DNA of 64,000 nt, taken from Ponticoccus alexandrii (GTDB lineage Bacteria; Pseudomonadota; Alphaproteobacteria; Rhodobacterales; Rhodobacteraceae). Positions 7,007 through 14,817 of this stretch are shown piece after piece (positions within the stretch are counted from its first letter, which is position 1; each line of letters opens with the position of its first letter). The stretch is from assembly GCF_016806125.1 (NCBI RefSeq), contig NZ_CP047166.1, positions 1,984,001 through 2,048,000 on the forward strand, read 5' to 3'. Both the position numbers and the translations under genes were made by a program. The notes under the pieces were generated by a model, which worked only from the letters and a program-made list of their open reading frames with translations, was not told the DNA's origin and ran no database searches.

Positions 7007-7300
7007 CCCTGGCCCTCCCGGGGTCCCTTGCCCCAACTGCTCTTGGGTGCAAATCACCCTGTTCCTGTGTCATCAGGATCACAAATCCGACCCTTTCTGG
7101 CAATTCACAAACTTGAGCGCATTGTTGCAATTGACACTGTGCGCACAGGGTGACGCGCAGTGGTGCACGCTGCCTGTAAAATCCCGCGCAATAATCGCAA
7201 AGAAAAAACGCCGCGCGGGACAGATTTTTCGGGCTCGCCCGGTTGACCTGCCCGAACCCCCGCCATAATGTCTCGGCGCGGAGTATAGGAGCCTGAACAG

Positions 7301-7348
7301 GTGATCACGCTAGTCGTAATCGTAGGGAACGCGCGCATGGGCCGGTAA
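7301..7348 (+). CDS. ilv attenuator leader peptide, 15 aa
   Basis: Short frame GTG...TAA encoding MITLVVIVGNARMGR. It is preceded by TAGGAG at 7286-7291. Residues 2-8 contain Ile, Leu, three Val and Ile, the end products of the pathway started by the following gene ilvB. Some codons (CTA, GTA, GTA) are unusual for this GC-rich genome, which would sharpen ribosome stalling. It ends 27 bases before the attenuator terminator stem. The role is inferred from position and composition, as in the enteric ilv leaders. Confidence 0.8.
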   Translation: MITLVVIVGNARMGR

Positions 7349-7376
7349 CGGTTTCCCAGATGAGGACCCCATGCGC
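7333..7376 (+). promoter_or_regulatory. Antiterminator pairing of the ilvB leader
   Basis: GCGCATGGG (7333-7341, inside the end of the leader peptide) is exactly complementary to CCCATGCGC (7368-7376). The second arm shares 7375-7376 with the left arm of the terminator hairpin, so the two structures exclude each other. A ribosome stalled on the Ile/Val/Leu codons (7304-7324) leaves the first arm free and allows antitermination. A ribosome at the stop codon covers it. Seen directly as complementarity; the mechanism is inferred. Confidence 0.75.
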
Positions 7377-7404
7377 CCCCGCCAACCCGGACGGGGGCTT
7401 TTTT
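7375..7404 (+). terminator. ilvB attenuator terminator
   Basis: Stem GCCCCCG (7375-7381) pairs with CGGGGGC (7392-7398), with a 10-base loop, followed at once by six T (7399-7404). It stands 39 bases before the ilvB start and after a leader peptide, so it acts as a conditional terminator. Confidence 0.88.
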
Positions 7405-7443
7405 ATACCCGCTTAACGCAGTGTCGGAGATGGAGATGAACCG

Positions 7444-9198
7444 ATGACACGTCAGATGACCGGAGCGAAAATGGTGGTTCAGGCCCTGAAGGATCAGGGT
7501 GTGGACACGGTATTCGGCTATCCCGGCGGCGCCGTTCTACCCATCTACGACGAGATCTTTCAGCAGAACGACATCCAACACGTCCTCGTCCGTCACGAAC
7601 AGGGCGCGGTCCATGCCGCCGAGGGCTACGCCCGCTCGACCGGGAAGCCGGGTGTCTGCCTCGTGACCTCGGGTCCCGGCGCCACGAACGCCGTCACCGG
7701 CCTGACCGATGCGCTGATGGACTCGATCCCAATCGTCGTCCTGACCGGGCAGGTGCCCACCTTCATGATCGGCTCCGACGCCTTTCAGGAGGCGGACACC
7801 GTCGGCATCACGCGCCCCTGCACGAAACACAACTGGCTGGTGAAAGAGACCGACAAGCTGTCGGGCACCATCCACGAGGCCTTTCATGTCGCCACCTCGG
7901 GTCGTCCCGGGCCGGTGCTGATCGACATTCCCAAGGACGTGCAGTTCGCCAGCGGCCAGTACACGCAGAAGGCCAAGGCCAAGACCTCGCATTACATGCC
8001 GCAGGTCAAGGGCGACCCCGAGATGATCCAGGCCCTAGTCGAGGCGCTGGAAGTGGCCGAGAAGCCGGTCTTCTACACCGGCGGCGGCGTGATCAACTCG
8101 GGCCCGGCGGCCAGCCAGCTGCTGCGCGAACTGGTCGAGGCGACGGGCTTTCCGATCACCTCCACGCTGATGGGCCTCGGCGCCTATCCGGCGTCGGGCA
8201 AGGCGTGGCTGGGCATGCTGGGGATGCACGGTCTCTACGAGGCCAACCTCGCCATGCACGCCTGCGACCTGATGATCAACGTGGGCGCGCGCTTCGACGA
8301 CCGGATCACCGGGCGCATCGACGCCTTCAGCCCGAACTCGAAGAAGGCCCATATCGACATCGACCCCTCGTCGATCAACAAGGTGGTCAAGACCGACTAC
8401 CCGATCGTCGGCGACGTCGCCCATGTGCTGGAAGACGTGCTGCACCTGTGGAAGGCGCGGGGCCGCAAGGTCAACCGCGAGGCGCTGGCCAAGTGGTGGA
8501 CCCAGATCGAGAAGTGGAAGAAGGTCGACTGCCTGAAGTACAAGCCGTCCGAGGGCGCGATCCGTCCGCAGCACGCGCTGGCGCGGCTCGAGGCGCTGAC
8601 CAAGGGCCGTGACCGCTACATCTGCACCGAGGTCGGCCAGCACCAGATGTGGGCCGCGCAGTACCTCGGCTTCGAGGACCCGAACCGCTGGATGACCTCG
8701 GGCGGTCTGGGGACGATGGGCTACGGCTTCCCGGCTTCCATCGGCGTGCAGATGGCGCACCCGGACGCGCTGGTCATCAACGTGGCGGGTGAGGCCTCGT
8801 GGCTGATGAACATGCAAGAGATGGGCACGGCGATCCAGTACCGCCTGCCGGTCAAGCAGTTCATCATGAACAACGAGCGTCTGGGCATGGTGCGCCAGTG
8901 GCAGCAGCTTCTGCACGGCGAGCGCTACTCGCAAAGCTGGTCCGAAGCGCTGCCGGACTTCGTCAAGCTGGCCGAGGCCTTCGGCGCCAAGGGCATCCAG
9001 TGCTCGGACCCGGCGGATCTGGACGACGCGCTGATGGAGATGATCGAGTACGACGGCCCGGTGATCATGGACTGCCTCGTCGAGAAGCACGAAAACTGCT
9101 TCCCGATGATCCCGTCGGGCGAGCCGCACAACAAGATGCTGCTCGGCGACGCCAAGGCGACAAACGCCATCGCCGGCAAGGGCGCTGTGCTGGTCTGA
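7444..9198 (+). CDS. ilvB: Acetolactate synthase large (catalytic) subunit
   Basis: ThDP-dependent enzyme joining two pyruvates (valine/leucine branch) or pyruvate and 2-oxobutyrate (isoleucine branch). 584 residues, full length. The N-terminal pyrimidine-binding domain has GYPGGAVLPIYDE and the cofactor-activating glutamate (VRHEQGAVHAAEGYAR, Glu-52). The middle FAD/DHAP-synthase-like domain has GARFDDRITG. The C-terminal ThDP domain has VAGEASWLMNMQEMGTA and NNERLGMVRQWQ. Its regulatory partner ilvN is not next door but 5 kb away on the other strand. Expression is probably controlled by the attenuator upstream. Confidence 0.96.
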   Translation: MTRQMTGAKMVVQALKDQGVDTVFGYPGGAVLPIYDEIFQQNDIQHVLVRHEQGAVHAAEGYARSTGKPGVCLVTSGPGATNAVTGLTDALMDSIPIVVLTGQVPTFMIGSDAFQEADTVGITRPCTKHNWLVKETDKLSGTIHEAFHVATSGRPGPVLIDIPKDVQFASGQYTQKAKAKTSHYMPQVKGDPEMIQALVEALEVAEKPVFYTGGGVINSGPAASQLLRELVEATGFPITSTLMGLGAYPASGKAWLGMLGMHGLYEANLAMHACDLMINVGARFDDRITGRIDAFSPNSKKAHIDIDPSSINKVVKTDYPIVGDVAHVLEDVLHLWKARGRKVNREALAKWWTQIEKWKKVDCLKYKPSEGAIRPQHALARLEALTKGRDRYICTEVGQHQMWAAQYLGFEDPNRWMTSGGLGTMGYGFPASIGVQMAHPDALVINVAGEASWLMNMQEMGTAIQYRLPVKQFIMNNERLGMVRQWQQLLHGERYSQSWSEALPDFVKLAEAFGAKGIQCSDPADLDDALMEMIEYDGPVIMDCLVEKHENCFPMIPSGEPHNKMLLGDAKATNAIAGKGAVLV

Positions 9199-14256: not shown

Positions 14257-14817
14257 TTACGCGCCGCGGCTCAGCGCGGCGACGCCTGTCCGGGCCACTT
14301 CCATCAGGCCCAGCGGCCGCATCAGATCGGCAAAGGCATCGATCTTGTCCGGCGTGCCGGTCAGTTGGAAGACAAAGCTCTCCAGCGTCGAATCGACGAC
14401 ATTGGCGCGGAAGATATCCGCCAGCCGCAGCGCCTCGACGCGTTTTTCGCCCCCGCCCTTGACCTTGAACAGCGCCAGTTCGCGCTCGACAGAGCCACCC
14501 TCGACCGTCAGATCGTGCACGTCGTGGACAGAGACGATCCGGCCAAGCTGTGCCTTGATCTGCTCGATCACCTGCGGGGTGCCGCTGGTGACGATGGTGA
14601 TGCGGCTCAGGTGGCCCTCGTGGTCGACCTCGGCCACGGTGAGGCTGTCAATGTTGTAGCCACGCCCCGAGAACAGGCCAATCACCCGCGCCAGCACGCC
14701 GGGCTCGTTTTCCACCAGAACGGCGATGGTGTGTGTTTCGGTCACGTCCGAGAAGCTGGGCCGCAGGTTATAGGCGGAATGCTTCGACGATCCCTTCTTG
14801 ATGTTCAGTGCGGACAT
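14257..14817 (-). CDS. ilvN: Acetolactate synthase small (regulatory) subunit
   Basis: 186 residues. An N-terminal ACT domain (about 28-100: THTIAVLVENEPGVLARVIG, LFSGRGYNIDSLTVAEVDHE) binds valine for feedback control. The C-terminal ALS_ss domain follows (ERELALFKVKG ... ANVVDSTLESFVFQLTGTP). It forms the holoenzyme with IlvB. In most relatives ilvN directly follows ilvB; here it is 5 kb away in reverse orientation and outside the attenuator's reach, so the subunits are probably not co-transcribed. Confidence 0.95.
   Translation of the reverse strand: MSALNIKKGSSKHSAYNLRPSFSDVTETHTIAVLVENEPGVLARVIGLFSGRGYNIDSLTVAEVDHEGHLSRITIVTSGTPQVIEQIKAQLGRIVSVHDVHDLTVEGGSVERELALFKVKGGGEKRVEALRLADIFRANVVDSTLESFVFQLTGTPDKIDAFADLMRPLGLMEVARTGVAALSRGA

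Follow-up and report, generated by a model that had tools for sequence, protein, structure and literature searches.

The locus raises the question of whether the short interval upstream of ilvB in Ponticoccus alexandrii, which holds a small frame followed by two inverted repeats, is a transcription attenuator, and how its two hairpins could act on one another. It lies in a window of 64,000 nucleotides (the whole stretch of DNA that was analysed), to which the positions below refer. The IlvB protein has all three TPP-enzyme domains and scores 780.9 bits against TIGR00118 (cut-off 538), as a biosynthetic acetolactate synthase large subunit. The sole ilvN-type small-subunit match in the genome is found at about 14263-14484 of the window, on the minus strand (G000:C1:1998263-1998484). 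Some 5 kb separate this match from ilvB, which is encoded on the other strand and is not directly followed by it, so that the gene directly served by the leader would be ilvB. The elements of the region are as follows.

7243..7269, plus strand: putative sigma-70-type promoter (TTGACC 7243-7248, CATAAT 7264-7269)
7287..7291, plus strand: Shine-Dalgarno-like AGGAG of the leader, from the sequence and the family comparison
7301..7348, plus strand: leader peptide gene, GTG start, 15 codons, translation MITLVVIVGNARMGR and stop, read from the sequence and the family comparison
7304-7324, plus strand: control codons ATC ACG CTA GTC GTA ATC GTA, inside the leader frame
7333..7341, plus strand: 5' arm of stem P1 (candidate antiterminator), GCGCATGGG, conserved with compensatory changes
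7342..7351, plus strand: small nested hairpin CCG-GTAA-CGG, which holds the stop codon (helices 2 and 3, 91-93% paired, with double changes)
7368..7376, plus strand: 3' arm of P1, CCCATGCGC, its last two bases common to the terminator
7375..7404, plus strand: intrinsic terminator, GCCCCCG / CGGGGGC plus T6
7444..9198, plus strand: ilvB, acetolactate synthase large subunit, the gene predicted to be regulated (ORF list, TIGR00118 profile, domains)

Taken singly, the P. alexandrii sequence provides weak evidence for such a device, since the fold energy of 7277-7410 is ordinary relative to shuffles (z = -0.68) and about 2.5% of the sequences obtained by dinucleotide shuffling of 7301-7404 contain a perfect 9-bp inverted repeat. 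A generic promoter and terminator scan picked up neither the ilvB leader promoter nor its terminator, a search of Rfam at the gathering threshold returned nothing at the element, and a covariance-model search for a T-box or metabolite riboswitch upstream of ilv genes gave no match. These unremarkable single-sequence figures would suit a reading in which a fortuitous small frame and an inverted repeat, or a constitutive terminator, happen to lie near a promoter. That reading is refuted by comparative data and retains practically no probability, as 87 sequences share the frame, its length, the position of its stop, its choice of codons and the two stems, the last with compensatory changes. The comparison drew on 95 genomes of the family, among them that of P. 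alexandrii, which together gave 96 regions upstream of ilvB. In 84 of the 96, the core CGCATGG is found with an in-frame leader; together with L070, L087 and L120, in which core and leader are kept with changed bases, these make up the 87 rows of alignment A1. Because conservation holds in these 87 relatives, chance is ruled out and the element is confirmed as real; what stands before ilvB across this large alphaproteobacterial family is, on comparative grounds, a firm 15-codon gene with a regulatory element. Three family members (L023, L031 and L035) were omitted from the alignment, as a clear leader was not found before their ilvB genes; L035 is AT-rich, with a 1.9-Mb genome that is 74% complete. 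In these three, attenuation has possibly been lost or replaced.

In P. alexandrii, the leader codons at 7301-7348 are GTG ATC ACG CTA GTC GTA ATC GTA GGG AAC GCG CGC ATG GGC CGG TAA. Across the family the leader is exactly 15 codons long in 76 of the 87 rows, its stop codon lies exactly 12 nt past the CGC codon in all 87, and the core that encodes RMG is unusually conserved. By codon count, 85 of the leaders contain about four or more Ile/Leu/Val codons. The first-pass annotation had read the frame at the correct coordinates and with a GTG start, which holds for the P. alexandrii leader but not as a family trait, since the start codon is ATG in 76 rows, GTG in 10 and TTG in 1. An AGGA, GGAG or AAGG motif precedes the leader in 79/87 relatives, and TTGAC is found 49-66 nt (about 58) 5' of its start in 86/87. 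The same annotation held that a transcription start downstream of 7333, or a leader frame not conserved in relatives, would speak against attenuation. The predicted promoter at 7243-7269 lies upstream of 7333, with transcription expected to start near 7277 as judged from its position, and the frame is kept across the family, as are the Ile/Val/Leu codons. The CTA and GTA codons, described there as unusual in a GC-rich genome, are indeed strongly enriched relative to ilvB. GTA accounts for 125 of the 240 Val codons in the 87 leaders (52%) as against 3.3% in 30 ilvB genes of the family, and CTA for 49 of 123 Leu codons (40%) as against 0.9%, i.e., enrichments of about 15-fold and about 40-fold, respectively. 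Rare-codon use is thus a family-wide feature, and attenuator leaders are known for codon bias (PMC1183508).

Regarding the hairpins, GCGCATGGG at 7333-7341 is the exact reverse complement of the 3' arm at 7368-7376 (9 bp), and in the terminator GCCCCCG (7375-7381) pairs with CGGGGGC (7392-7398), followed by T6 (7399-7404). The two share G7375 and C7376 only. Both structures had been proposed on first reading, with covariation named as a check, and both are borne out by the alignment. For P1 and the nested pairs, 93.1% of cells are paired and five pairs show double changes; for the terminator the figures are 99.7% and four of seven pairs. None of 500 shuffles reached the observed level in either case; in such a comparison kinship alone can beat shuffles without structure, but slid controls were here also far lower. 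In every one of the 87 relatives, the first bases of the terminator arm are the final two of P1. The proposal that the hairpins are mutually exclusive was correct as to the sharing of bases and overstated as to exclusivity, as both are present together in the predicted fold.

A clean compensatory case is provided by L087, whose P1 is GGTGCATGGG/CCCATGCACC. The stem is kept with a different sequence in the more distant L049 (GCGCACCGGGAA/TTTTCGGTGCGC), with its sequence replaced in L030 and L034, and as ACAGCCGCTG/CAGCGGCTGT in L042, which belongs to another family of the class; these distant stems were located by searching each sequence individually. The same procedure gave only candidate stems, no better than shuffles, in L018, L032 and L033. 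The core of P1 (7333-7341 with 7368-7376, columns 96-103 with 142-149 of A1) shows one double change in eight pairs among the 87 sequences, a conservation stricter than pairing needs and stricter than that of the terminator. An extension of P1 by GGG 7325-7327 with CCC 7377-7379, which was predicted by folding and would account for exclusion between the hairpins, was rejected, its percentage of paired cells and its covariation score being at the level of shuffles. Two further matches to GCGCATGG...CCATGCGC occur elsewhere in the P. alexandrii genome.

The trp and ilvBN attenuators of Escherichia coli operate through control codons, the placement of the stop codon and the logic of the terminator. 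The P. alexandrii element resembles them in these respects (for theory, see PMC1183508), but it is without their large overlap between antiterminator and terminator, and no clear separate protector hairpin was seen here. A closer precedent by description is the ilvBN operon of Caulobacter crescentus, for which attenuation by an Ile/Val leader has been published (Tarleton et al., 1994, as cited in PMC4117421). Both cases comprise an alphaproteobacterial acetolactate synthase gene, an Ile/Val leader peptide and a rho-independent terminator, whereas ilvN is found elsewhere in P. alexandrii; the likeness is one of description, not of sequence. An "ilvB leader peptide" attributed to Vitreschak et al., 2004, was also encountered in a 2005 survey of intergenic regions from alphaproteobacteria (PMC1273637). 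The gene, the bacterial class and the type of element are the same, and the element of the window is probably that leader, matched by citation and not row by row. Alphaproteobacterial ilvB attenuation is already published, to go by these citations, and the window adds a member with its small gene. In the Rhodobacterales, the order to which P. alexandrii belongs, the uORFC-8-2 motif upstream of cysS is a candidate ribosome-mediated attenuator (PMC8632094) that differs in gene, control codons and structure.

As an attenuator predicts, conservation extends from the promoter, the leader frame and its Ile/Leu/Val and rare codons to the stems and the location in front of ilvB. The element is very probably a ribosome-mediated attenuator of ilvB transcription, which would respond to the charging of branched-chain tRNAs. 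The presence of related leaders before ilvB in rhizobia and the Caulobacter ilvBN precedent also argue for this assignment. Comparison of sequences thus supports the attenuator reading of the first-pass annotation, the regulation itself being predicted. While anatomy, conservation and covariation are seen directly in the alignment, the positions of the ribosome and the switch are inferred. Transcription would begin near 7277, and a ribosome would start to translate the leader of 15 codons. Were Ile-, Leu- and Val-tRNA amply charged, it would reach the stop codon at 7346 and cover the 5' arm of P1 (7333-7341), such that P1 could not form and the terminator at 7375-7404 would stop transcription before ilvB. 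Under a shortage of charged tRNAs, chiefly of the isoacceptors for CTA and GTA, the ribosome would stall within 7304-7324 and P1 would form, taking up G7375 and C7376, i.e., the two basal pairs of the terminator beside its U-run. With those pairs lost, the polymerase would continue into ilvB. In a ribosome model with a footprint reaching 15 nt beyond the P-site, all or most of P1 can form for stalls with A-site codons at 7304-7322, while from 7325 on it forms little or not at all and the terminator is fully formed. Modelled in this way, a ribosome at the stop codon masks P1, and a stall on the control codons frees it. The least certain step is how P1 would weaken the terminator, because the two overlap by only two bases; loss of basal pairs next to the U-run could suffice. 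In the predicted equilibrium fold with a stalled ribosome, the terminator and a 7-bp P1 are found together, and both hairpins form in the predicted folds of 66 of 83 relatives.

The rhizobial relatives bear directly on this step. The best Rfam match of the window element is RF02502 (Atu_C8, a "Rhizobiales sRNA"), at 25 bits and an E of 0.003 over 151 bases, below the gathering score of 50 bits. Read as codons, the RF02502 consensus gives AUG AUU AUU CUU GUG GUG ... CGC AUG GGC, with the same stem as in the window. Both comprise a branched-chain-rich leader ending in RMG, a GCGCATGGGC/CCCATGCGC stem and a terminator, followed by ilvB, but the rhizobial forms have a longer leader end and no overlap between P1 and terminator. 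A search with RF02502 across the class gave one match above cut-off, and the weak matches look mostly like chance, although L052 does precede ilvB. Rhizobial loci were collected by scanning species genomes for the 3' half of RF02502; among the matches listed, Rhizobium, Agrobacterium, Brucella, Shinella, Phyllobacterium and others carry leaders such as MKNLNVLIVVGRRMGRMV about 100-170 nt before ilvB. At rhizobial loci including L136 and L256 (Agrobacterium genomosp. 13), ilvB is preceded by Atu_C8, which codes for a leader peptide; to judge from this coding content and position, the sRNA label of Rfam probably stands for an attenuator leader. The literature searched, of partial coverage, contained no mention of Atu_C8. 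By these comparisons, a family catalogued as an "sRNA" seems to be the leader of this attenuator, and the testable question arises of how a conserved stem could control a terminator that it barely overlaps.

Two other accounts of the element give its conserved parts a different role. The same leader-peptide attenuator might switch otherwise than by base-pair exchange. Termination could be hindered by the position of P1, whether by stacking, by folding slowly or by contacting RNA polymerase, or be permitted by a ribosome that sits on the stop codon. In the rhizobial forms P1 and the terminator are 6-8 nt apart, so simple exchange between them cannot apply there, and this zero overlap in the homologues counts against exchange, as do the two shared nucleotides here, the coexistence of both hairpins in predicted folds and the keeping of the P1 sequence beyond pairing needs. 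The terminator arm nevertheless starts precisely where competition demands, on the last two P1 bases in 87/87, and losing two basal pairs may be enough to weaken termination; a switch of another kind is possible though rather unlikely. It appears considerably less probable that the terminated leader serves mainly in trans, either as a regulatory sRNA or through a functional peptide, and that attenuation is a by-product. The trp attenuator RNA and peptide of Sinorhizobium meliloti (rnTrpL/peTrpL) do act in trans (PMC10117765), Rfam files the rhizobial relatives as an sRNA, and the constancy of the RMG-coding core would fit such a role. Yet the element precedes ilvB in the family and at most rhizobial loci, attenuation accounts for the conserved pairing and the rare pathway codons, and a trans role, for which no target is known, would add to attenuation and not exclude it.

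Attenuation of ilvB thus remains the preferred reading, and the rhizobial loci hint that the device may have been put to further use. Eight of the nine genomes checked have two copies of the leader, one before ilvB and the other before a gene related to Bcr/CflA of the MFS type or before a second ilvB; the MFS query protein passes TIGR00710. Leaders of the Atu_C8 type, branched-chain-rich and with the RMG end, the same stem and a terminator, precede the Bcr/CflA-type gene at L051, L123-L127, L141, L148, L158, L162, L177, L206 and L208, an arrangement that suggests branched-chain amino-acid control of an efflux-type gene. A tentative generalization, of low probability as it stands, is that in alphaproteobacterial ilvB leaders, Atu_C8 included, a conserved stem governs the terminator through a non-textbook switch, the two having 0 to 3 bases in common, and that the rhizobial copy places an efflux-type transporter gene under branched-chain amino-acid control. 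In Rhizobium hidalgonense (L185 / L265), a second ilvB homologue, whose product is about 60% identical to the IlvB of the window, has a leader of its own.
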